64,000 nucleotides of DNA, from positions 194,501-258,500 of the forward strand of contig NZ_CP045571.1 of the NCBI RefSeq assembly GCF_009662475.1, written 5' to 3'. Shown one piece after another: positions 1-16,106 of the stretch; positions within the stretch are counted from its first letter, which is position 1, and each line of letters starts with the position of its first letter. The notes under the pieces were generated by a model. That model saw only the letters and a program-made list of their open reading frames with translations, searched no databases and was not told the DNA's origin. This stretch comes from Acidithiobacillus thiooxidans ATCC 19377 (GTDB lineage: Bacteria > Pseudomonadota > Gammaproteobacteria > Acidithiobacillales > Acidithiobacillaceae). Position numbers and translations under genes: made by a program.

Positions 1-1430
1 AACAAGGTTTAGAACTCAAACTCGGTCAGCATTTGGCCATGACCCCGCAGCTGCAGCAGGCCATCCGCCTGCTGCAGTTATCGACGGTTGATCTGCAACA
101 GGAAGTTCAGGGGATGCTGGAAAGCAATCCTCTTCTGGATGAGGACGTATCCGGTGAAGAAACCGGAGTCCCCGGCAGCGCTCCAGAACCCGGTGAAAGC
201 TCCGGTGAAGATCGCCAGCTGGATCTGGCTGCGGAAGATACTTTGCCTGATGATTTGCCGGTCGACAGCCAATGGGATGACGTGTTTGATCTGGGCACCA
301 GTGCATCAGGTGGAGGTTCTGATGATGAGCTTCCCGACTTTGAAGCACGGAACAGTCACAGTCAAAGTCTTCAGGATTATCTGCGCTGGCAGGCGGATAT
401 GACGCACTTCAGTCCTGAGGAGCGCAACATGGCGGAGATGATCATTGATGCCATTGATGATCGCGGTTATCTGGTTGAAAATCCAGACGATCTGGCTGCT
501 GCTATGGGTGCTGATGCTGCCGTTTTCCAGGCGGTATTGTTGCGCGTTCAGGACTTTGACCCTCCCGGTGTGGCGGCGCGTGATCTGAGTGAGTGTCTTT
601 TGTTGCAGCTCAGGCAGTTGACGGATGTAGACGCCAGCGTGCAAAAGTTGGCGATGGATGTTGTCAAAGACCATTTGCAAGCCCTGGGTCGCCATGATTA
701 TCCACGGCTGTGCGCCAGTCTGGGGGTTGATGAGGGCATGCTGGGAGCAGCCATGGCGCTCATTTCCGCCCTCAACCCTAAACCGGGTGAAGAAGTCGGA
801 AGCGAAAATACCGAGTATGTCATTCCCGATGTGATTGTGCGCTGGTCCGGAAAGCGTCTGCGGGTTGACCTGAACCCTGAGGCCATGCCCAAGCTGCGCA
901 TCAACCGCCGCTATGCGGGCATGGCCGGGGGCAAAGATGCCGCTCATAAATATATTCAGGATCAGCTCAATGAGGCACGCTGGTTTATCAAAAGCCTGCA
1001 AAGTCGTCAGGAAACCATTTTGAAAGTGGCTCGGGCAATTGTGGATAAGCAGAAGGATTTTTTTAGCAACGGTCCGGAATCCATGCGCCCCATGGTGCTG
1101 CGCCATATCGCTGAAACCGTGGAAATGCATGAATCCACGGTTTCCCGGGTGACCAACCAGAAATACATGGTTACTCCCCGAGGTCTTTTCGAGTTCAAGT
1201 ACTTTTTTTCCAGTCATGTGGGAACAGACAGTGGCGGCTCAGCATCAGCGACGGCCATTCGCGCCCTGCTCATCAAATTGACCCAGGCGGAAAATCCCAA
1301 ACATCCTTTAAGTGATGCAGAAATTGCCAAGGTTCTCGCCGATCAGGGCATTCAGATTGCCCGCCGGACGGTAGCCAAATATCGGGAAGCGGCTAATATC
1401 CCGCCGGCAAGCCAGCGTCGGCGGCTTTAG
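1..1430 (+). CDS. rpoN: RNA polymerase sigma-54 factor RpoN (5' end outside window)
   Basis: Sigma-54 directs RNA polymerase to -24/-12 promoters and needs AAA+ activators for open-complex formation. The frame is open from base 3, and the residues before the first in-window Met (base 33) already read like the conserved RpoN N-terminus (LELKLGQHLAMTPQLQQAI), so the true start lies just upstream. The Gln/Leu-rich activator-interacting region is followed by an acidic linker, the core-binding domain and the DNA-binding domain. The diagnostic RpoN box ARRTVAKYRE is at residues 443-452 counted from base 33. It heads the hpf-ptsN-hprK-rapZ block, the usual proteobacterial arrangement. Two sigma-54 activators with receiver domains (14721-16106 and 45614-46972) and a strong -24/-12 site (9834) lie in the same window. 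Confidence 0.97.
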   Translation, partial: QGLELKLGQHLAMTPQLQQAIRLLQLSTVDLQQEVQGMLESNPLLDEDVSGEETGVPGSAPEPGESSGEDRQLDLAAEDTLPDDLPVDSQWDDVFDLGTSASGGGSDDELPDFEARNSHSQSLQDYLRWQADMTHFSPEERNMAEMIIDAIDDRGYLVENPDDLAAAMGADAAVFQAVLLRVQDFDPPGVAARDLSECLLLQLRQLTDVDASVQKLAMDVVKDHLQALGRHDYPRLCASLGVDEGMLGAAMALISALNPKPGEEVGSENTEYVIPDVIVRWSGKRLRVDLNPEAMPKLRINRRYAGMAGGKDAAHKYIQDQLNEARWFIKSLQSRQETILKVARAIVDKQKDFFSNGPESMRPMVLRHIAETVEMHESTVSRVTNQKYMVTPRGLFEFKYFFSSHVGTDSGGSASATAIRALLIKLTQAENPKHPLSDAEIAKVLADQGIQIARRTVAKYREAANIPPASQRRRL

Positions 1431-6719: not shown

Positions 6720-7982
6720 ATGCACCGTATGGGGGTCGGGTTGATACTGCTCCTGTTGCTGCTGCTCATCGGAATGTTTGTTTTCTGGTTCATCGGTGGC
6801 CCCCGTATTGTTCTGGAAGAAGTTCTCGCTACCCGCCTGCAGACCCCCGTACATCTGCAGGCCAATCCCCGCTTTTATTGGGGCAAGCAGCAATTGCAGG
6901 TGACCCTGCAAGGCTTGCGGATCGGAACAGCAGCACAGCCCCGCCTGCGGTTGCGGCGGCTGATGTTCAGTGTGCTCTGGCGCCCCCTGCTTGCCGGGCA
7001 TATAAAAATCCGCCAGATTTTTCTGGATCAGCCTTCTGTGTATGGTCCCTGGCCAGCCAGCCCGGGCTCGGCAGCTTCTTCCGCCAATATGAATGTCAGT
7101 CTGCCGGGAGACATCCAGATCCGCGATGGCAGTTTGCGCTGGTCTGGTCTGGCGGGACATGTCTTACAGCTGTCCGATGTGCAGGCCAGTTTCCCTCGTT
7201 CTGGTGCCGGGGCCGCTACCGGACGCTGGTTCTGGAATCAACATGCGGGTCAAGGCCGTTTGCAAATGGATATTCACTCCACCAGCGGACTTTCTCTGCG
7301 CAATTTGCAATTGCTGATTGGCACTCGTCAGGTTCCCGATGCCCTGAGTCTCCAGATGCCGCGCCTGGAAATTCAGGATAAAGTTCTGCAGATTCCCGCG
7401 CTGCAGGTCCGTTGGCAAGATAATCATGAGCGGCGGATGGAGCTTTCCCTGCAGGATTTACAGGCCCAGCCAGGGCTGCAGAAAATTGCGCTGCGCAGCG
7501 CGACACTGCAAGCCGGATCAGATTTTCACATGCAGATTGATCATGCCCGGTTTTCCTGGGCGCAATGGACCGGTCAGGCAGGCTATGTCCTCAGTGCAGA
7601 GCATCTGCCTGAGCTGGCAAAAAAATGGGGATTGTTCTGGCCGAAATTGACGAACCCCAAGGTCCCGCGATATTTCAAAATGAGCGGCAAGCTGGCCTGG
7701 AAAAATCCCCGCTTCGACTGGAGCATCCGCCAGGGACTGCTAGATAGCAGTCCCTGGTCTGGAAACATTACGGGAACCTGGCAACCCCTCAAAATTCATC
7801 TGGCTTTACAGATCCAGCGCCTGAACCTTGGTGCCTATCTCCCCGCGCCCAAAGCGGGTCCAGGAGCGGTACTACCCAAGCTTCCCGCAACCTGGCCGAT
7901 CACCGGCTCGCTGCAGATCGGGCAGCTGATCTGGGGAAAAATCCGGGCGGAGAACGTGCTTATCCGTAGTCGAAAACCATGA
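6720..7982 (+). CDS. AsmA-like inner-membrane-anchored protein
   Basis: A 420-residue protein with an N-terminal membrane anchor (Leu-rich run LLLLLLLIG, then FVFWFIGGP) and a long, mostly beta-strand periplasmic part. The Met at 6720 is preferred to an upstream ATG at 6636, which would overlap ptsI by 77 bases and put 28 non-membrane residues in front of the anchor. In Pseudomonas and relatives an AsmA-family gene lies directly upstream of mutY and yggX. The same order is kept here and is the main support for the family call. AsmA-family proteins are thought to help lipid traffic to the outer membrane. It overlaps mutY by 4 bases. Confidence 0.65.
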   Translation: MHRMGVGLILLLLLLLIGMFVFWFIGGPRIVLEEVLATRLQTPVHLQANPRFYWGKQQLQVTLQGLRIGTAAQPRLRLRRLMFSVLWRPLLAGHIKIRQIFLDQPSVYGPWPASPGSAASSANMNVSLPGDIQIRDGSLRWSGLAGHVLQLSDVQASFPRSGAGAATGRWFWNQHAGQGRLQMDIHSTSGLSLRNLQLLIGTRQVPDALSLQMPRLEIQDKVLQIPALQVRWQDNHERRMELSLQDLQAQPGLQKIALRSATLQAGSDFHMQIDHARFSWAQWTGQAGYVLSAEHLPELAKKWGLFWPKLTNPKVPRYFKMSGKLAWKNPRFDWSIRQGLLDSSPWSGNITGTWQPLKIHLALQIQRLNLGAYLPAPKAGPGAVLPKLPATWPITGSLQIGQLIWGKIRAENVLIRSRKP

Positions 7983-9091
7983 TGCAGATTGCCGACATAT
8001 TGCTGGACTGGTACGGCGAAAATGGCCGTCATGGTCTGCCCTGGCGACAGACCCGGGACAGTTATCGCCTGTGGCTTGCGGAAATCATGTTGCAGCAAAC
8101 CCAGGTGGAAAGTGTCAAGCCCTATTACCAGCGGTTTCTGGACGTCCTGCCCAATTGGGAGGCTTTGGCTGTTGCGCCCCAGGATCAGGTGCTGGCCTTG
8201 TGGAGCGGTTTGGGCTATTACGCCCGGGCCCGCAACGCCCAACGTGCTGCGCAAAAAATCATGACGGATTTTGCGGGTGAATTTCCCGATACGCCGGAAA
8301 GTGCAGAAAGTCTCCCGGGAGTGGGGCGCAGTACGGCTGCTGCAGTACTGGCCAGTGCTTTTGCCCAGCAACGCCCTATTCTCGATGCCAATGCCCGCCG
8401 TGTCCTGATCCGGACCCAGGCCATTAGTAGTGATCCCAAGGCCAGCAAGACCCTGCAGCATTTGTGGAAGCTGGCTGAGGCACTGACGCCCGCTGATGCC
8501 CACACCTACAATCAGGCTATTCAGGACTTCGGCGCAATGATTTGCCTTCCACGGCATCCTCACTGCGACGCATGCCCCTTACAACGGCATTGCCTGGCTT
8601 ATGCGGGTGGGTTGAGTGAACAACTGCCGCTGCCCACCCGCAAGCCGGAAAAACCCGATCGCTGCGTTTTTTTTCTGCAGTTAGAAGATCGTAGTGGACG
8701 GATATTTCTTGAAAAAAGACCGGATTCTGGCATATGGGGTGGGCTCTGGTGTCTGCCTCAATTTAACCCGGAAGGTTCGTCGAACCCCTTCCTTTGCAAT
8801 GATCAGCAAAAGGCCCTTGCCGATGGGATCCTGCTGCGCGAGCGGGTAAGACAGTTCTGTGTCCTCCGTCATGGTCTTACCGTAGAAGTAAAGGCGCTGA
8901 CAATGGTTCAAAAGCATGTATTTACCCATTTTCAATTACACTTCCGCTGCATTCTCGCGACGGTGCAAGACGATCAAATTGTGCCGGGTGTCGCAGATCA
9001 GATTTTGACAGGACGTTGGTTTACCCGGGAAAATGCCCTGGCAGAAGGATTGCCAACCCCTGTTCGCAAGATTCTCAGTCAGACTTCGTAA
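7979..9091 (+). CDS. mutY: A/G-specific adenine DNA glycosylase
   Basis: A 370-residue MutY, which removes adenine mispaired with 8-oxoguanine or guanine. Visible features are the LWLAEIMLQQTQVESV segment with the catalytic glutamate, the helix-hairpin-helix around LPGVGRSTAAAVLA, the catalytic aspartate in ILDANARRV, and the [4Fe-4S] pattern C-x6-C-x2-C-x5-C in CLPRHPHCDACPLQRHC. The C-terminal third is the Nudix-like 8-oxoG recognition domain. It overlaps the AsmA-like gene and is followed by yggX, the usual oxidative-damage pairing. Confidence 0.96.
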   Translation: MMQIADILLDWYGENGRHGLPWRQTRDSYRLWLAEIMLQQTQVESVKPYYQRFLDVLPNWEALAVAPQDQVLALWSGLGYYARARNAQRAAQKIMTDFAGEFPDTPESAESLPGVGRSTAAAVLASAFAQQRPILDANARRVLIRTQAISSDPKASKTLQHLWKLAEALTPADAHTYNQAIQDFGAMICLPRHPHCDACPLQRHCLAYAGGLSEQLPLPTRKPEKPDRCVFFLQLEDRSGRIFLEKRPDSGIWGGLWCLPQFNPEGSSNPFLCNDQQKALADGILLRERVRQFCVLRHGLTVEVKALTMVQKHVFTHFQLHFRCILATVQDDQIVPGVADQILTGRWFTRENALAEGLPTPVRKILSQTS

Positions 9092-9167: not shown

Positions 9168-9440
9168 ATGTCTCGAATGGTGCAATGCGTAAAACTGGGT
9201 CACGAAGCTGAAGGTCTGGATCGTCCCCCTTATCCTGGCCCACTGGGCGCGCGTATTTATCAGGAAGTTTCCAAGGAAGCCTGGCAGGGTTGGCTGAAGC
9301 ATCAGACGATGTTGATTAATGAATATCGTCTTTCGCCGATAGATCCCAAGTCCAGAACTTTTCTGGAAAAACAGATGGAAGCCTACTTTTTTGGTGACGG
9401 CGCGCAGCAACCTGAAGGCTTTGTTCCGCCTTCTGCCTGA
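9168..9440 (+). CDS. yggX: Probable Fe(2+)-trafficking protein YggX
   Basis: A 90-residue YggX-family protein linked in enterobacteria to Fe-S cluster protection and iron trafficking under oxidative stress. The N-terminus [20 protein letters not shown] carries the conserved Cys, and the middle has the family pattern around [23 protein letters not shown] precedes the ATG. It follows mutY, as in Pseudomonas and E. coli. In an iron- or sulfur-oxidising acidophile the protective role would be relevant, but that is inference. Confidence 0.94.
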
Positions 9441-9522
9441 GCAGTTCAAAAACAACCCGGAGGAAGTCGTTTCGGCAACCTCCCATATTTCCCATCCTCT
9501 CCATAAGCTGTTTCTCCAGCGT

Positions 9523-9644
9523 CGTCGTTGAATGACGACAGGCGCGCGCGGCGTCAGATCATCCATTTATTATAAAATCCTTTCCACCTGTCGCTAACAA
9601 GTGACGTATTACCATGCGTTCCGGGGTGGCGGCGATCGCTGACA
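9523..9644 (+). promoter_or_regulatory. Three GlrR-like activator palindromes (TGTC-N10-GACA type)
   Basis: Three near-copies of TGTC-N10-GACA, the enterobacterial GlrR site, each with one mismatch: CGTC-N10-GACA (9523-9540), TGTC-N10-GACG (9589-9606) and TGGC-N10-GACA (9627-9644). They lie about 190-310 bp upstream of the sigma-54 promoter at 9834, a usual enhancer distance. A GlrR homologue is encoded at 14721. By simple arithmetic, sites with at most one mismatch are expected about 0.1 times in 300 bp. Confidence 0.5.
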
Positions 9645-9705
9645 GGCTATGGGATAAACCAGGGACTTATTTTTATCTGACTGATAGTTAAGCGCAAATA
9701 ATTTT

Positions 9706-9737
9706 GCACCGGGAGTTTTCGTGCCCGGATTTTTATT
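9706..9737 (+). terminator. Candidate Rho-independent terminator
   Basis: Stem CCGGG/CCCGG (9709-9713 with 9724-9728) around a 10-base loop, followed by ATTTTTATT. It could end the mutY-yggX transcript or a small RNA, and would insulate the sigma-54 promoter downstream. Confidence 0.4.
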
Positions 9738-9814
9738 GGCTGGAGATGGGACGTTAAGGTTGATTCTGCCTGTTTCAGCGCCATGAATGTTTTTATATTT
9801 TATTTTCTTATTAT

Positions 9815-9827
9815 AATCATTAACTTA
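9815..9827 (+). promoter_or_regulatory. IHF-like site
   Basis: AATCAT-TAAC-TTA fits the IHF consensus WATCAR-N4-TTR with one mismatch. It lies in an AT-rich tract between the activator-like palindromes and the sigma-54 promoter, where DNA bending would help an upstream activator. It is close to the -24 element, which weakens the call. Confidence 0.3.
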
Positions 9828-9833
9828 AAAAGT

Positions 9834-9849
9834 TGGCACGCGTTATGCT
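9834..9849 (+). promoter_or_regulatory. Sigma-54 (-24/-12) promoter
   Basis: TTGGCACG-CGTT-ATGCT matches the consensus TGGCACG-N4-TTGCW, with GG at 9835-9836 and GC at 9847-9848 separated by exactly 10 bases. The only departure from consensus is A for T at the first base of the -12 TTGC. Transcription would start near 9860, about 63 bases before the ATG at 9923. Activator-like palindromes and an IHF-like site lie upstream. Confidence 0.7.
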
Positions 9850-9922
9850 ATGAGGTTATCGCTGCTGAAACAGCGCCGCTGCAAGCGGAAATCTGGAACC
9901 ACCTTTTGAGGAGAGCTTATTT

Positions 9923-10168
9923 ATGAAGAAAATTGTTGCCCTGACTGCTGCATTGTCTTTCTTGACTGCTACTGCTGCTTTTGCGACCACCGAAGTGCCT
10001 GCCAAGGCTCCTGAAAAGATGGTTGAGCACAAAGCGCCTGAGCACAAAATGGTAAAGAAAGCCGAGCACAAGAAAATTGAGCACAAGAAAATGGTGAAGA
10101 AGGCTGAAATGAAGAAGCCTGAAATGGCAAAGAAAATGGAAGAAAAGAAGGCTGAACCAGCTGCATAA
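9923..10168 (+). CDS. Small secreted Lys/Glu/Met/His-rich protein
   Basis: An 81-residue protein with a clear Sec signal peptide (MKKIVALTAALSFLTATAAFA, predicted cleavage after residue 21). The mature part is about 60 residues and low in complexity: 18 Lys, 11 Glu, 6 Met and 4 His in a repetitive helical pattern of EHKK and KKAE units. It has no recognised domain. The composition recalls Asr-type acid-shock proteins and His/Met-rich periplasmic metal binders, but homology to either is not claimed. GAGGAG precedes the ATG. The gene stands alone between its sigma-54 promoter and a terminator, converging on a copper-type TonB receptor. Regulation by GlrK/GlrR is inferred from upstream sites. 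Confidence 0.8.
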   Translation: MKKIVALTAALSFLTATAAFATTEVPAKAPEKMVEHKAPEHKMVKKAEHKKIEHKKMVKKAEMKKPEMAKKMEEKKAEPAA

Positions 10169-10216
10169 GTAGCTTCAATCCGCAGCCTGATGGCGCGGAG
10201 TTCAGTTGTGCAGATG

Positions 10217-10244
10217 AACCCGGGGAATCTTCTCCGGGTTTTTT
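10217..10244 (+). terminator. Rho-independent terminator of the Lys-rich protein gene
   Basis: Imperfect stem AACCCGG/CCGGGTT with internal GGA/TCT pairing, followed by TTTTT. It lies 49 bases after the stop codon and just before the structured repeat copy. Confidence 0.7.
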
Positions 10245-10260
10245 ACGTCCGATAAATCTA

Positions 10261-10451
10261 AAAACGGCAGTTGCCGTGGGTGCTTTGCCGCGACTTTTGT
10301 TTCGAGCCGTTGTTGTTCTTGGCGAAATCCAGCGCCCGTCAGGAGAGCTGTTTGAGCCCGTAGGGCGAGTTCTCTCCTGACAGCAGGATGAGTCTTAGAA
10401 CAACAGGCAAGGAACAATGGAGCAAAAAGCACCCACGGCAACTGCCGTTTT
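10261..10451 (+). repeat. Structured intergenic element, copy 1
   Basis: A 191-bp element whose ends form a perfect 26-bp stem (10261-10286 with 10426-10451), starting AAAACGGCAG and ending CTGCCGTTTT. Inside are nested stems: GTTGTTCT/AGAACAAC, ATCC/GGAT, GTCAGGAGAG/CTCTCCTGAC, and a GCCC-GTA-GGGC tip. The central segment GGCGAAATCCAGCGCCC is the same in all three copies. It lies between two convergent genes, so it could also act as a terminator. Minus-strand open frames in it are not believable genes. Confidence 0.9.
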
Positions 10452-10463
10452 CAGGATAAAATA

Positions 10464-12656
10464 TCAAAATTGATATTGCAGGCTCATGTTCACAGAACGT
10501 CCTGAACCAGGTAGTGCTGTGCCATAAGTCATGGGGCGCTGGCCCAGATAAAGCCCTCCAAGTGGTTGTTCATAAAACTGGTTCAAGAGATTCGCGAGTT
10601 CCAGGCTGGCCTGCCAGTGGCCCTGCCGATATGCGGTGCGCAGATTCAATAAGCCATAGCCAGCTGTTTGCGGTTCATTACGCAGCGCGTCTACCTGGTT
10701 TTTTGCGGCAACCAGCTGTTCTTCGATAGTGTTGCGCCATGCTCCCCAGTTTTGATGCAAGGCAAGTCGCAAGTTTAAGGGCATCATGTGGTAGAGGGGC
10801 GTATGGTTGCTCAAGTTATCCCCGCGCACATAGGCGGCTTTTGCCGACATTGTAAATGTTCCATAACGCCGGGTTTGTGCCAGACGGGCAGAGCTATCCA
10901 TATTGATACCCCATATTTCGGCGGTTTGATTGGCAAATTGCAAATAGACAAAACCGCTTTCCGCGTGCAGATTTGCCGCTGTGCAGGCTCCTCCCAGGCT
11001 GGTCGGACAGCGGACAGCACCAATATAATTATGAATGTAGGTAAAGTAAGGCTGAATTTGCACGTGCCAGATTTGTGGATCTGAGCCATGGAAATTGGCA
11101 GCCAGACTGACCGTGTTGGCTGTTTCTGGTTTCAGGTTGAGATTACCAATATAACCATTACCATCGTTGAACCAGCCGATCATATTCATGGCCATGGCAT
11201 TGCTGGACCAGGGGTAGAGTTCGTAAAGGCTGGGGGCTTGGGCTTTACGCGCCAGTCCCAGGGTATAGCTACTGTGTTTATCGGGCTGGTAGTGCACGAT
11301 GGCCGAAAAATTCCAGATGATGTACTGGCGCTGGCGATCACTCCGGTTGAATGTACCCGGCAAGCTTTGCGGGTTGTCCGGGTTTCCATACATCATGGCA
11401 TTGTAACCTTGGACCGGGCCGGAGTTCATGCGCACATCTTCCAGCCGCAGGCCAAGATCACTGTTCCATTGTGGATCCCATTGCGTTTTCAGGTCGGCGA
11501 AAGCGGCATAGCGATCCCTTCTGCCATTGTCGATAGTTATATAAGTATTGGGACCCATCATGCTCATTTTACTGGTTGCTGGGGGCCACCAGTCGTTCAG
11601 ATGTTCATGGTTGTAACTGGCACCGAATTCCAGGCGATTGCGTGTGTCCAGAGGCACAGCAATTTTGCCCTTTACGCCGTTATTCACGCCCTGAGTGTTC
11701 ATTGGCATGCCCATCATGGCGCCCAGGTTTTTGTCTGCAAGGAAGTTCATGTTGTGTTGAACTACCTGATTGTAAGCCTGTAATTCTAATTCACCCCATT
11801 GAAAGCGTCCCTGATAATGGAGGTTAAGGCGGGTACTGTGATTTCCGGTCATATCCATGCGGGCACTGGGAAATCCTTGGTAGGGAATGCTCTGATATTG
11901 CACGCCCAGTTCCAACACCTGCTGTTTCCAGCGGTAGGCAGCATTGAGATTCTGGTATACTGCCTCATACAGGGATGAAGCCACCACATCGCCGGGAATG
12001 CCGTAGGTTACAGGCTTGAAAGCTTTTGCTGCGGTGTAGTTGCCGCCATGTACATAGGAGCCGCTATAGTTAATGCTGAAGTGCCGGGTAGCCGCAGCGG
12101 CATTCAGATGCGTCCCGTAAATATGGCCATTACTTTGATAAAACTCGCCTACGCTGCCGCCACTCACAAAATGACTGCCGGTCTTTGCGAAAATTGGTTG
12201 CGGAGATTTGACGATGACGGCCCCACCAACAGCGTTGCCCCCCACACTTACCGGAACCACCGTGGGATAGATGGTTATCTGACCAATGGCAGCTGGCGGA
12301 AGGTACGAAAGTGGTGGGTTCATATGATTGGCACAGGCATTGGGAGTGCTGAATCCGTTAACCTGCAAGAGCAGCTGATTGTCACTCAAGCCGTTTAAAA
12401 CTGGCAATCCGGATACTCCACCTGCGGCGGAAACAGAACCTTCGGGGATGTTCTGCAAAATCTTCGCGGTATTGCTTGCCAGATGGGCATTATCACGCGC
12501 ATTGGCCGAGGCATTCAGGACGCCATCTGCAGAGTCCGTCATGAATCCATATCCTGGTAGGTTAATGTTAATGGTCATCGGGGTTGTTGCCCCGGAGCTG
12601 TTGGCCAGTGCCAGCAAGACCGCGCCGATAAGCGGATGGATGGGGGCTCGTCGCAT
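10464..12656 (-). CDS. TonB-dependent outer-membrane receptor, OprC/NosA-type copper transporter
   Basis: A 730-residue protein: signal peptide to about residue 23, plug domain, then a 22-strand-type barrel ending in aromatic Phe (SLQYQF). It carries the copper-binding pattern known from Pseudomonas OprC: CxxxM as C108-A-N-H-M112, followed by NPPLSY, and HxM as H301-N-M303. The barrel is rich in Met and His. It therefore probably binds and imports copper across the outer membrane. No clear TonB box was recognised near the mature N-terminus, as in some OprC relatives. It is transcribed alone, divergent from glrK, and converges on the small Met/His-rich secreted protein. Confidence 0.85.
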   Translation of the reverse strand: MRRAPIHPLIGAVLLALANSSGATTPMTININLPGYGFMTDSADGVLNASANARDNAHLASNTAKILQNIPEGSVSAAGGVSGLPVLNGLSDNQLLLQVNGFSTPNACANHMNPPLSYLPPAAIGQITIYPTVVPVSVGGNAVGGAVIVKSPQPIFAKTGSHFVSGGSVGEFYQSNGHIYGTHLNAAAATRHFSINYSGSYVHGGNYTAAKAFKPVTYGIPGDVVASSLYEAVYQNLNAAYRWKQQVLELGVQYQSIPYQGFPSARMDMTGNHSTRLNLHYQGRFQWGELELQAYNQVVQHNMNFLADKNLGAMMGMPMNTQGVNNGVKGKIAVPLDTRNRLEFGASYNHEHLNDWWPPATSKMSMMGPNTYITIDNGRRDRYAAFADLKTQWDPQWNSDLGLRLEDVRMNSGPVQGYNAMMYGNPDNPQSLPGTFNRSDRQRQYIIWNFSAIVHYQPDKHSSYTLGLARKAQAPSLYELYPWSSNAMAMNMIGWFNDGNGYIGNLNLKPETANTVSLAANFHGSDPQIWHVQIQPYFTYIHNYIGAVRCPTSLGGACTAANLHAESGFVYLQFANQTAEIWGINMDSSARLAQTRRYGTFTMSAKAAYVRGDNLSNHTPLYHMMPLNLRLALHQNWGAWRNTIEEQLVAAKNQVDALRNEPQTAGYGLLNLRTAYRQGHWQASLELANLLNQFYEQPLGGLYLGQRPMTYGTALPGSGRSVNMSLQYQF

Positions 12657-12760: not shown

Positions 12761-12901
12761 CCACAGTAGTTTGTAATTCTAATGTTTTGCTGGTTAATAG
12801 AGCGATATTATTAAAGTATATTAAGGTTATCTGATGTTCTTGCGATTTGTTTCCGGCGAATTTACGCTGGAGCCTGGGTATTTTTGGGAGTGCAAAGCTT
12901 C

Positions 12902-14401
12902 ATGGTTCTTCGTCCAAGTTCCATTTCCAAGCTGGTCGTGTTTGGCTTCGGTCTGGCCATCGTGCCACTGGTATTGGTCATTGTCAGCGTGACGCTTTCC
13001 ATCGCGCATTTTGCCGAACAGGGGCAGGTCAGTATTCTCCGGGCAGTGGCCATGAGTGATGCGGCCAATCGCATGAATAACGCCGTGCGTTCCATGGAGC
13101 GTTATGGTCTGCAATACACTGTACTGCAGGATCAGGCATTACTGGTTTTGTATGATCAGAGCTTTAGCGAGTACCAAAAAGCCAGTACCCAGTTTGCGGC
13201 GGCAGGCCCCTCGCCGGTCGACCTGGAGCGGCTGCATCATCTGGCTGAAAATCTATCCCGTGCCCGTCAGCTATTACCCCTGGTTTCCCTGGAGGGCAAC
13301 CGGAGTGCTCTGGCAGGTGATTTCAGCCGGGCCAGCGGGGAGGCCCAAAGTCTGCAAAGTGATGTGAATGAAGGAATCAGTACAGAGGTCGGTAAACTGG
13401 GCACGCGTGCGTTGGCCATTAAACGGCTGACCATTTTTGAGGTGCTTCTGGTTTTACCCCTGTCAGTCGCGGTAGCTATTGTGTTCATTATTCTCATTAC
13501 CCGACCGGTGCGGCGTCTGGACCAAGCGGTGTCCGGGCTGGGTGCAGGTGATCTGGAAACACCCATAACGGTCAAAGGTCCGCGCGACATAGCCAGTTTG
13601 GGAGATCGCCTGGAATGGTTGCGGAACCGTCTGAACGCTCTGGAAGCGGCCAAGCTGCATTTTCTGCGTCAGCTTTCCCACGAGCTGAAAACGCCTCTCA
13701 CAGCCATTCGCGAAGGATCAGAGTTGTTGCAGGATGATCTCGGCCAGAATCTCAGTGCTGAGCAGCAGGAAATTGTACAGATTGTAGGGGATAACAGCTT
13801 ACGCTTGCAGCGCCTCATAGAAGATTTGTTGCGCTTTAGTCTGGCGGAGGGGCCTGTGGGGGCAGGGATGGTGCAGGAGTTATCTTTGACGCATGTGGTA
13901 GAGGATCTGCTGCTGAGTTATAAGCCCAGCCTAAGAAGTAATGCATTGCACCTGGAAACCCGGCTTGAGGAGGTGCGTATTCGCGGACATGCAGATCGAC
14001 TCCGCACTATTTGTGATAATTTGTTGTCAAATGCCGTGAAATTTTCTCCTCAAAACGCTACCATACGGGTGGATTTGCAAGTACAGGACGAAGATGCGGT
14101 GTTGGACGTTCAGGATGAGGGTCCTGGAGTGGATCCCGATGAGCGGGAAAAGATTTTTGATATTTTGTATCGCGGCGAAGCTTCGGATTCCGGAAAAATA
14201 GAAGGTAGTGGTCTCGGGTTGGCCATTGCCAGGGAATATGTGTTGAGTTATGGGGGAAGCCTTGAATTGCAGGATAAAAAAACACCAGGTGCTTGGTTTA
14301 GATTGCGCTTACCCCTTGCTGGGCAGGATGCTTCCCATGCTCATCATTCCGCTGATACTGACGGGATGCGCCAGCACCCCGGTCCCAGCTCTTCCGTCTA
14401 A
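12902..14401 (+). CDS. glrK: Sensor histidine kinase, GlrK/QseE-like
   Basis: About 499 residues: N-terminal transmembrane helix, periplasmic helical sensor region, second transmembrane helix (FEVLLVLPLSVAVAIVFIIL), HAMP, HisKA with the phosphorylated His in RQLSHELKTPLTAI, and an HATPase domain with NLLSNAVKFSP, DEGPGVDPDE and GSGLGLAIA. ATG at 12902 is preferred to an upstream TTG because GGGAG lies 11 bases before it. It is followed by a QseG-like lipoprotein and a sigma-54 response regulator, the glrK-qseG-glrR order of enterobacteria. In E. coli the pair responds to envelope signals and drives glmY. Confidence 0.88.
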   Translation: MVLRPSSISKLVVFGFGLAIVPLVLVIVSVTLSIAHFAEQGQVSILRAVAMSDAANRMNNAVRSMERYGLQYTVLQDQALLVLYDQSFSEYQKASTQFAAAGPSPVDLERLHHLAENLSRARQLLPLVSLEGNRSALAGDFSRASGEAQSLQSDVNEGISTEVGKLGTRALAIKRLTIFEVLLVLPLSVAVAIVFIILITRPVRRLDQAVSGLGAGDLETPITVKGPRDIASLGDRLEWLRNRLNALEAAKLHFLRQLSHELKTPLTAIREGSELLQDDLGQNLSAEQQEIVQIVGDNSLRLQRLIEDLLRFSLAEGPVGAGMVQELSLTHVVEDLLLSYKPSLRSNALHLETRLEEVRIRGHADRLRTICDNLLSNAVKFSPQNATIRVDLQVQDEDAVLDVQDEGPGVDPDEREKIFDILYRGEASDSGKIEGSGLGLAIAREYVLSYGGSLELQDKKTPGAWFRLRLPLAGQDASHAHHSADTDGMRQHPGPSSSV

Positions 14402-14717
14402 CGCCGTACTGCTCAAACCGGGGGAACAGATTATTAAAACCAGTGAGCTGGCAACCCTCAAGGCACAAATAGCCGAACTGGAAAAAGTGACCCCGGTGAC
14501 TGCACCCTGCATTTCCGAAAAAGCCGAAGCAGCTGTTCTGAGTAAACAGTTGGCCGATGCAAGGGCAGGAGATCCCGGATACCAAAAGCTGGAAAACAAG
14601 GTGAACGACTTGCAAAATCGTCTTCTCCAGTCGCAGCAGCATGAAGCCGAATTACGTCGTAAACTGAACGAATTGGTACAAATAGAGAAAAACGCCCGCT
14701 TTCCGCAGGGACACTGA
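14328..14717 (+). CDS. QseG-like outer-membrane lipoprotein
   Basis: A 129-residue lipoprotein candidate: short hydrophobic leader and lipobox LILTGC, then a Pro-rich stretch and coiled-coil heptads (SELATLKAQIAELEK and a C-terminal helix). It overlaps the kinase 3' end by 74 bases and sits 3 bp before glrR. In enterobacteria QseG is a lipoprotein in this exact position that binds the kinase. The call rests on position and architecture, not on clear sequence identity. The leader has no positive charge from this ATG, so an upstream start (14250, or a TTG at 14312) is possible. Confidence 0.6.
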   Translation: MLPMLIIPLILTGCASTPVPALPSNAVLLKPGEQIIKTSELATLKAQIAELEKVTPVTAPCISEKAEAAVLSKQLADARAGDPGYQKLENKVNDLQNRLLQSQQHEAELRRKLNELVQIEKNARFPQGH

Positions 14718-14720
14718 ATC

Positions 14721-16106
14721 ATGGCAGATAAAGGTAAAATCCTGCTGGTAGACGACGACGCAGATTTGCTGCGCCTGTTGTCGCTGCGCATGAAAACGGC
14801 AGGATATAACATCAGTACGGCGGCTAATGGTAATGAAGCTCTGGCGCTGTTGGCCATGGAGCATCCGGGTCTGGTAATTACCGACCTTAAAATGGACCAG
14901 ATGGATGGCATGGCCCTGCTGGATGCCATTCGTCGGGAGTATCCCACCTTGCCCGTCATCATTTTGACAGCCCACGGTTCCATACCCGATGCCTTGCTGG
15001 CCGCCAATCAGGGGGTTTTTGCCTTTTTGACCAAGCCCTTTGATGGTAAAGATCTGATGGCCCAGGTTGAGCGCGCTTTTAGTTTGACCGCAGCCGTAGC
15101 CCCATCTTCCGGAAAAAAGGGCAAGGATACCAGTTGGGATAGAATTTTGACCCGTAGCCCTAAAATGCAGGCGGTGCTGGATCAGGCACGCCTGGTAGCG
15201 GCCTCCGATGCCAGCGTTTTTGTGCACGGTGCCAGCGGTACGGGCAAAGAGTTGCTGGCGCAGGCCATTCATCAGGCCAGTCCACGGCGTCCGCAGCCAT
15301 TTATTGCCCTGAATTGTGCGGCATTTCCGGAGCAGTTGCTGGAGTCGGAGCTTTTTGGTCACAAGAAAGGCGCTTTTACCGGGGCGGCCAATAATCATCA
15401 GGGATTATTCCAGGCAGCGGAAAAGGGCACCCTGTTTTTGGACGAAATTGGTGATATGCCGCTTTCCCTGCAGGTCAAATTATTACGGGCTCTGCAAGAA
15501 CGCATGATTCGCCCGGTAGGGTCGACAGAAAGCATCGCCGTCGATGTCCGCATCATCTCCGCCAGTCATCGTGATCTGGAAAAAGAAATGGCTGAACGGC
15601 GTTTTCGCGACGACTTGTATTATCGTCTTTGCGTGGTGACGCTGGAATTGCCCGCCCTGGCCGAACGCCCTGAGGATATTCCCTTGCTGGCAGAGTTTTT
15701 TCTGCGCGATACCGCCGCTAAAAACCGCAAGGATGTGCGCGGTATTGCTCCGGAGGCGATGGAGCTCCTGGTGGCGGCGCCCTGGCCAGGAAACGTCCGG
15801 CAGTTAGCCAATGTCATTGAGCAGGCGGTGGTTTTATCCACCACACCACGTATTGGTGCGCCCCTGATTCGCCACGCCCTGCGCGACAAAGAGGGCGAAG
15901 TCATGCCCCTGGCCGATGCCAAAGGGCGTTTCGAAATGAACTATCTTATTCAGATCATGCGCATGACCCGGGGAAATGTGAGTCAGGCGGCTCAGTTGGC
16001 GCAGCGCAACCGCACCGAATTTTATCGTTTGTTAAGACGCTATCACCTGGATCCATCAGCCTTCAAGGAAAATGGAACGGTAGATGAAGAAGAAGGCGAA
16101 GAATGA
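14721..16106 (+). CDS. glrR: Sigma-54-dependent response regulator, GlrR/QseF-like
   Basis: A 461-residue NtrC-family activator. The receiver domain has the acidic pocket VDDDAD and phosphoacceptor Asp55 in LVITDLKM. The AAA+ domain has Walker A GASGTGKE, an intact GAFTGA loop for sigma-54 contact and Walker B TLFLDEIGDM. The C-terminus is a Fis-type helix-turn-helix (GNVSQAAQLAQRNRTEFYRL). It forms an operon with the kinase and lipoprotein. Three GlrR-like palindromes and a sigma-54 promoter upstream of 9923 make that small secreted protein its likely target. Confidence 0.9.
   Translation: MADKGKILLVDDDADLLRLLSLRMKTAGYNISTAANGNEALALLAMEHPGLVITDLKMDQMDGMALLDAIRREYPTLPVIILTAHGSIPDALLAANQGVFAFLTKPFDGKDLMAQVERAFSLTAAVAPSSGKKGKDTSWDRILTRSPKMQAVLDQARLVAASDASVFVHGASGTGKELLAQAIHQASPRRPQPFIALNCAAFPEQLLESELFGHKKGAFTGAANNHQGLFQAAEKGTLFLDEIGDMPLSLQVKLLRALQERMIRPVGSTESIAVDVRIISASHRDLEKEMAERRFRDDLYYRLCVVTLELPALAERPEDIPLLAEFFLRDTAAKNRKDVRGIAPEAMELLVAAPWPGNVRQLANVIEQAVVLSTTPRIGAPLIRHALRDKEGEVMPLADAKGRFEMNYLIQIMRMTRGNVSQAAQLAQRNRTEFYRLLRRYHLDPSAFKENGTVDEEEGEE

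Follow-up and report, generated by a model that had tools for sequence, protein, structure and literature searches.

Organization of the locus

The window, meaning the whole 64-kb stretch of DNA that we analysed (G000:C1:194501-258500), carries rpoN, a sensor kinase-lipoprotein-response regulator operon and, between mutY and that operon, a gene for an 81-residue protein. In window coordinates, the features are as follows.

33-1430, plus strand: rpoN, encoding sigma-54 (NF004595, 590 bits against a cut-off of 513)
7979-9091: mutY
9168-9440: YggX-type Fe(2+)-trafficking gene
9523-9540, plus strand: putative upstream activating site 1, a GlrR-type palindrome CGTCGTTGAATGACGACA, kept in L001-L015 (the genus), L016 and L022
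9589-9606, plus strand: putative upstream activating site 2, TGTCGCTAACAAGTGACG, 66 bp from site 1 and kept in the same loci
9627-9644, plus strand: third TGTC-N10-GACA-like palindrome, passing in 1 of 26 loci, the window's own
9815-9827, plus strand: IHF-like site AATCATTAACTTA, weak
9834-9849, plus strand: predicted sigma-54 -24/-12 promoter element TGGCACGCGTTATGCT, GG-N10-GC exact
9860-9888, plus strand: two short tandem hairpins at the predicted mRNA 5' end, a weak feature
9923-10168, plus strand: ORF of 81 aa, Lys/Glu/Met/His-rich, repetitive and Asr-like, with a signal peptide (by eye) at about residues 1-21
10216-10241, plus strand: intrinsic terminator behind the 81-codon ORF, from folding
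10464-12656, minus strand: TonB-dependent receptor, on the opposite strand to the 81-codon gene
12884-14401, plus strand: sensor kinase in the GlrK/QseE position (HAMP, HisKA, HATPase)
14250-14717, plus strand: small lipoprotein ORF in the QseG position, with an LTGC lipobox (by eye) and a true start that is probably internal
14721-16106, plus strand: GlrR-like response regulator (GAFTGA, RNRTEFY helix)

The initial annotation, made from this sequence, had described a glrK-qseG-glrR operon near the small gene with rpoN in the same window, and we find both: the genes at 12884-16106 follow the order kinase, small lipoprotein, regulator that characterizes a GlrR system, and rpoN lies at 33-1430. 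Profile searches gave no family above cut-off for the QseG-position ORF, which is called a lipoprotein by position and lipobox only. The secreted repetitive protein that had been placed behind the promoter is likewise encoded there, and its ORF is followed by a terminator whose predicted structure (-17.6 kcal/mol) was equalled in stability by none of 200 shuffles and precedes a U run; the list of a simple terminator scan does not include it. We found no sigma-70-type promoter on the plus strand between 9400 and 10480. An Rfam scan of the window returned nothing, and the covariance model for GlmY (RF00128) matched neither the window nor any of 30 relatives, with a positive E. coli control.

Two further observations concern the stretch behind the small gene. 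An inverted repeat of 29 nt (arms 10258-10286 and 10426-10454, 97% complementary, with 139 nt between them) resembles the ends of a miniature mobile element. The TonB-dependent receptor encoded on the minus strand at 10464-12656 shows weak similarity to heme/hemoglobin and copper receptors, and its gene separates the small gene from glrK in the window, which is not so in G005, G011 and G006.

A predicted sigma-54 promoter and paired palindromes accompany the small gene

Searching with the 81-residue protein gave matches in 27 of 57 genomes. From the 37 match rows we used 26 orthologous loci in 26 genomes, the family being represented by 29 sampled genomes; four other Lys-rich proteins (L027-L030) were scanned and set aside, and the remaining seven rows, one of them a second piece of the G003 gene, were left out. 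No orthologue was detected in G012, G013 or G024, nor outside the family among the 57 genomes searched. One of the proteins set aside, at L030 (G019), is Lys/His/Met-rich, and a perfect sigma-54 element, TGGCACAGCGTTTGCT, precedes the match by 77 bp.

The near-consensus -24/-12 promoter element proposed at 9834-9849 is present, with one mismatch to TGGCAC-N5-TTGCW, and each of the 26 orthologous loci has an element of this kind (GG-N10-GC, at most two mismatches) between -90 and -81 relative to its start codon. Upstream of it, copies of TGTC-N10-GACA, which is the GlrR consensus according to the accessible part of PMC4987338, begin at 9523, 9589 and 9627, each with one mismatch. All three stand where the initial annotation had put them, but conservation extends to the first two only; the palindrome at 9627 is probably there by chance, because it is conserved in no other of the 26 loci. 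The two conserved sites lie upstream of the -24/-12 element, as at a GlrR-activated promoter. Their spacing in L001-L016 and L022, which represent the genus and g2, is 66 bp, except that L013-L016 have 75-77 bp, and the distance from site 1 to the promoter ranges from 157 to 358 bp across the loci that have site 1. In the other genera, sites occur at other distances.

The palindrome count that had been suggested as a check was uninformative across the 64-kb window, where copies with at most one mismatch are not enriched (23 found, 19.87 expected); genome-wide, the pattern described below, made from the small-gene sites, yielded five positions, three of them here. No second place in the window holds three palindromes within 104 bp, and none of 2000 dinucleotide shuffles of 9441-9922 reproduced the three, a comparison that is not a clean test since the reader had picked the place. 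Across the orthologous loci, the core GTCG-N8-CGAC (at most one mismatch, between -470 and -90) occurs at least once in 26 of 26 loci, compared with 2.53 in shuffles, and at least twice in 24 of 26, compared with 0.16, these being counts over related sequences and so not independent. Thus the lack of conservation in related species that had been named as evidence against the circuit was not encountered for either the promoter or the site core. The IHF-like site is present at 9815-9827 as claimed, but it is weak across relatives, with at most one mismatch near the -24 element in 15 of 26 loci against 4.4 in mononucleotide shuffles.

The small gene, the promoter and the sites are all missing from G012 and G013, both of which keep mutY and glrK-qseG-glrR (mutY of G012 contains a sigma-54-like match, at L189:4538, which was not counted). 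The stretch behind yggX in G012 resembles, by eye, a remnant of the gene's leader, which argues for loss of the gene, and the joint absence in the two genomes indicates that the small gene, its promoter and the sites are kept or lost together. These genomes also bear on the idea that the sites and promoter mainly serve to autoregulate glrK-qseG-glrR and not to control the small gene. Such an arrangement is suggested by G005, G011 and G006 (L098, L099 and L191), in which the small gene lies just before glrK with no TonB gene between them, and by Proteus mirabilis, for which the accessible part of PMC8745638 describes a glmY-qseE-qseG-qseF operon. We nevertheless regard it as highly improbable, since in the window a strong terminator follows the ORF and a receptor gene on the opposite strand intervenes, G012 and G013 retain the operon without promoter or sites, and G021 and G026 retain promoter and sites with glrR more than 100 kb away. 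We take the small gene to be the probable target.

The two tandem hairpins where the mRNA is predicted to begin recur in most orthologues; a script found a first hairpin of at least 4 bp in 23 of 26 loci, and single-sequence folding of the leader hairpins was not significant. We grade the leader as a weak feature because consensus folding of 17 leaders chosen out of the 26 gave one hairpin with almost no covariation. A hidden sRNA between the sites and the promoter was considered and rejected: the hairpin and T run at 9709-9736 were matched in stability by 60 of 200 shuffles, and the spacer is missing in species with a short one.

GlrR is the best candidate activator

The palindromes had been assigned to the enterobacterial GlrR type, and their arms and spacing agree with this. 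At glmY of E. coli MG1655 the sites are TGTCTGTAAATCACGACA, TGTCGCTTTCTGGCGACA and TGTCTCTTTTTAGCGACA, with a spacing of 63 bp from the second to the third; the site arms are the same as here, the spacing is 66 bp here versus 63 bp there, and the promoter is GG-N10-GC in both. In genomes such as G005 and G011 the small gene also shares with glmY its place directly before glrK. The outputs differ, an 81-residue secreted protein here and an sRNA in E. coli. The E. coli rpoE gene has a sigma-54 promoter activated by QseF, according to the accessible part of PMC6075780, so that GlrR/QseF acts there on envelope homeostasis, as is proposed here. Used as a second positive control, rpoE showed no site core in the adjoining 408 bp; the real site may be further off.

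The genome search listed 19 sigma-54-activator matches, 15 of which we compared with E. coli GlrR. Among these 15 the window GlrR is the best match (57% over 429 residues), followed by a paralogue, GlrR_2 (47% over 446 residues), and a comparison restricted to the HTH gave the same order (68 versus 54.5 bits). The paralogue is encoded elsewhere in the genome.

G000:C1:487753-489132: GlrR_2 (L037), in a second kinase-lipoprotein-GlrR_2 system

The window GlrR has the receiver, sigma-54 AAA+ and Fis-type HTH domains, the GAFTGA motif and an E. coli-like helix, the RNRTEFY recognition helix being identical in the two proteins; HTH_8 scores 21.7 bits, just under its cut-off of 22. Its best family, by about 190 bits, is the NCBIfam GlrR model NF011695, which it matches with 611 bits, short of the cut-off of 763; that cut-off is passed in only 1 of 370 genomes of the class, though 89 match at E 1e-165.

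Could the activator instead be GlrR_2, its main rival, or could both paralogues share the sites? The HTH of GlrR_2 is similar (RHRTDLYKL), a search of 31 genomes found the protein in 28 with an identity of at least 66%, and in several g3/g4 genomes some 10 kb separate its gene from the small gene. Moreover, G025 (91% complete) has the small gene with its promoter and a GlrR_2 match, and no GlrR was detected there beyond that match. Yet in G029, where GlrR_2 was not found and the only match is of the GlrR type (49% to GlrR_2), sites and a promoter lie between glrR and opgG. In addition, E. coli GlrR is closer to the window GlrR than to GlrR_2 by both of the measures given above, and in the genus only a few kb separate the small gene from glrR. 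We consider involvement of GlrR_2 unlikely, and the sequence comparisons support GlrR as the best candidate activator of the small-gene promoter. (The suspicion that GlrR_2 is a pseudogene in G025 and G028 was discarded; the reported in-frame stop is the natural stop.)

The small protein resembles the acid shock protein Asr

The signal peptide of the window protein ends in AFA (by eye), and the mature segment contains 16-32% Lys across orthologues, plus His, Glu, Ala and varying amounts of Met. In a family check of 13 proteins chosen out of the 26 orthologues, Asr (PF06392) was the Pfam family with the most member matches, weak ones (6 of 13, best E 0.015). Like Asr, the window protein is small, repetitive and Lys/His/Ala-rich and has a signal peptide; unlike Asr, it falls below the gathering score of the family (14.5 versus 24.9 bits, E 0.054). 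A search of the open-access literature for Acidithiobacillus with acid shock protein returned, in its accessible parts, only work on Enterococcus Fur. The protein is most likely a periplasmic, Asr-like basic protein that would protect or buffer at low external pH and may also bind metal.

A less probable reading makes it a metal sponge of the kind we take SilE/PcoE to be, and not an Asr-like acid-stress protein. Of the 26 orthologues, 24 contain one or more motifs of the form H-x(1,2)-M or M-x(1,2)-H, the adjoining TonB receptor is weakly similar to copper receptors (TIGR01778, 85 bits against a cut-off of 472, with heme/hemoglobin models slightly higher), and we count in the same direction the copper response of mdoG and its effect on copper tolerance (PMC6070983, accessible part; see below). 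However, in L014, L016, L018, L023, L024 and L026 just 2% of the mature protein is Met, whereas Lys and His persist, and the matches to Asr, themselves weak, point away from a metal sponge. An Asr-like protein, perhaps with a buffering, chaperone or metal-binding role, is the reading that we carry forward.

Like sites precede two opgG genes

The pattern GTCGYYNNNNRRYGAC, made from the small-gene sites, occurs at five distinct positions in the 3.4-Mb genome: 204021/204024 (overlapping) and 204090 at the small gene, 610171, which falls within a gene, and 1013736. At 1013736 a perfect TGTCGCCAATAAGCGACA precedes an opgG gene, with TGGCATAGAATTTGCT following about 204 bp downstream of the site. 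When the site pattern was relaxed (16 loci) and compared with the sigma-54 pattern (111 places), the two coincided at three loci, namely the small gene, opgG-A and opgG-B, with 0.16 expected and three or more obtained in 0.0005 of simulations; two site loci outside the range of the sigma-54 places listed were checked with the same sigma-54 pattern. Since the original pattern was made from small-gene promoters and the relaxed one after opgG-B had been seen, only the opgG-A match and the other lineages are independent of the pattern.

For the comparison in relatives, 32 rows, 30 of them with loci, were reduced to 29 opgG loci by leaving out an incomplete match (L085), and the identity of MdoG was checked by Pfam and that of OpgH by NCBIfam. 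A sigma-54 element is present at 28 of these 29 loci, and the exact core lies within 260 bp upstream in 28 of 28, against an expectation of 1.37 for one core at no more than one mismatch. The opgG locus without a sigma-54 element, L076, belongs to G030, which also had no GlrR match at the search threshold. In G029, a member of another family, the order is glrR, TGTCGCCGAATGGCGACA, CGTCGTCAAAAGGCGACA, TGGCACGCCCCTTGCT, an 82-codon ORF and opgG, giving two sites and a perfect promoter; the sites are 84 bp apart, so that the locus fails the strict pair test applied below. The 82-codon ORF in G029 (L086, 7026-7274) is basic and has a ribosome-binding site, and it lies between the GlrR-type promoter and opgG. 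Sites and promoter of this kind are carried by opgG of the Acidithiobacillia; the 536 bp upstream of E. coli opgG contain no site core and no sigma-54 element (at most three mismatches, own strand). The single-target picture from which we started is thus incomplete: the small gene remains a candidate target, and the candidate regulon also holds two opgG genes.

According to the accessible part of PMC6070983, copper raises both the transcript and the protein of mdoG in A. ferrooxidans, mdoG expressed in E. coli raised copper tolerance, and an ORF of unknown kind separates mdoG from mdoH in A. ferrooxidans, which is the layout found at opgG-B. The reported copper rise fits a possible envelope-stress output but is no test of GlrR itself.

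Site pairs at glrR loci beyond the Acidithiobacillia

We applied a strict test, two TGTC-N10-GACA copies (each with at most one mismatch) 60-80 bp apart and a sigma-54 element 50-350 bp further on, to glrR loci elsewhere. The first set comprised 15 GlrR orthologues from named genomes, 54-58% identical and the best 15 among the matches listed. Site pair and promoter were found at 9 of these 15 loci, with 23 control arm sequences giving at most 1 of 15; among 65 loci that encode more distantly related enhancer-binding proteins there were none. The gene behind the promoter is opgH in Pseudorhodoferax, Pseudacidovorax and, by sequence likeness, Variovorax; it encodes a BON-domain protein in Herbaspirillum, an EF-hand-like protein in Wenzhouxiangella and a bactofilin at L110 and, by likeness, L115. 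Arsenophonus provides a good positive control, as GlmY (128 bits) lies 29 bp behind the promoter start and behind a site pair.

In an evenly drawn sample of the class, GlrR was matched in 89 of 370 genomes at 92 places, from which 80 loci were fetched. Left out were four Acidithiobacillia (G000, G017, G018, G029), G051, G049 twice, G147, G295, G385 and the second places of G391 and G326. Site pair and promoter occur at 25 of the 80 loci, and the 23 control arms gave a mean of 0.65 and a maximum of 4. No strict site pair with promoter lies nearby at the other 55 class-sample loci, at 6 of the 15 named loci or at L089-L092, and the strict test also failed for G049 (two loci), G051 and G047.

The genes taken to lie behind the 25 class-sample promoters were chosen by script and by hand. 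Ten of them (L196, L210, L213, L214, L217, L226, L227, L240, L257 and L270) encode short proteins that match EF-hand models, so that proteins of this kind recur behind site pairs near glrR in many lineages. The Pfam cut-off is passed by six of the ten and missed by four, and most show a signal peptide by eye. One further output is MdoG, two are GNAT-type acyltransferases and three are small proteins without a family; the remaining nine are of other kinds or unclear and include a YgaP-type membrane protein and a thioesterase. The GlmY covariance model matched at none of the 25 loci.

The initial annotation had read the secreted protein as a rewired output of a regulator that drives an sRNA in E. 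coli. A protein in place of the sRNA is what we find, but the direction of the change may be the reverse. "Rewired" is probably the wrong way round, because protein-coding genes are common behind GlrR-type site pairs in the class-wide sample; GlmY, absent from those 25 loci, was found behind the site pair of Arsenophonus and in the E. coli control. GlmY could be an enterobacterial special case.

A proposed GlrR/sigma-54 circuit for the envelope

Taken together, the comparisons give good sequence support to a GlrR/sigma-54 circuit for an Asr-like periplasmic protein. We propose that 9834-9849 is a genuine sigma-54 promoter and that the nearby GlrR would activate it by binding the two palindromes 66 bp apart, DNA looping bringing the regulator to the polymerase. 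The promoter would drive a single terminated mRNA for a secreted, Lys/His-rich and probably disordered Asr-like protein of the periplasm. The like sites before two opgG genes further suggest that GlrK-QseG-GlrR runs a small envelope regulon made up of periplasmic glucans and a basic periplasmic protein, and the signal may be acid, copper or another envelope condition. To this reading as a whole, which combines the sigma-54 promoter, two-site activation by GlrR, the secreted Asr-like protein and the opgG regulon, we assign on sequence evidence a probability of about 85%.

A broader proposal, which we would put at even odds, is that GlrR is an old and widespread envelope regulator whose switch is conserved and whose target gene is freely exchanged, with glmY as the enterobacterial replacement of an ancestral protein output. 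If so, the outputs exchanged in many lineages would include periplasmic-glucan genes, bactofilins and BON-domain proteins as well as small proteins of the EF-hand or basic periplasmic kind.

To our knowledge, GlrR/QseF has been studied through its enterobacterial targets. The table of a 2016 review gives its signal in Salmonella as not known (PMC4987338, accessible part), and GlrR/GlrK appear in a 2025 sigma-54 survey of the Acidithiobacillia, with no targets assigned in the accessible part (PMC12194929). The accessible text of the Acidithiobacillus papers that deal with GlrR (PMC9040811, PMC12194929) does not report the small gene or opgG as targets. Our literature search covered mostly open-access work, with subscription journals largely outside it; it found no report of GlrR with opgH, and for GlrR with periplasmic glucan it gave, in the accessible parts, only work on E. 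coli and fluoride.

A regulon that joins periplasmic glucans with small secreted proteins suggests what GlrR may do outside the enteric bacteria. Its DNA site can be searched for in any genome, which makes the signal testable, and the circuit would offer a clean case of a regulator that keeps its switch while the output shifts between protein and RNA. In biomining bacteria, the copper-induced mdoG described in the accessible part of PMC6070983 would be linked to a candidate regulator, GlrR.
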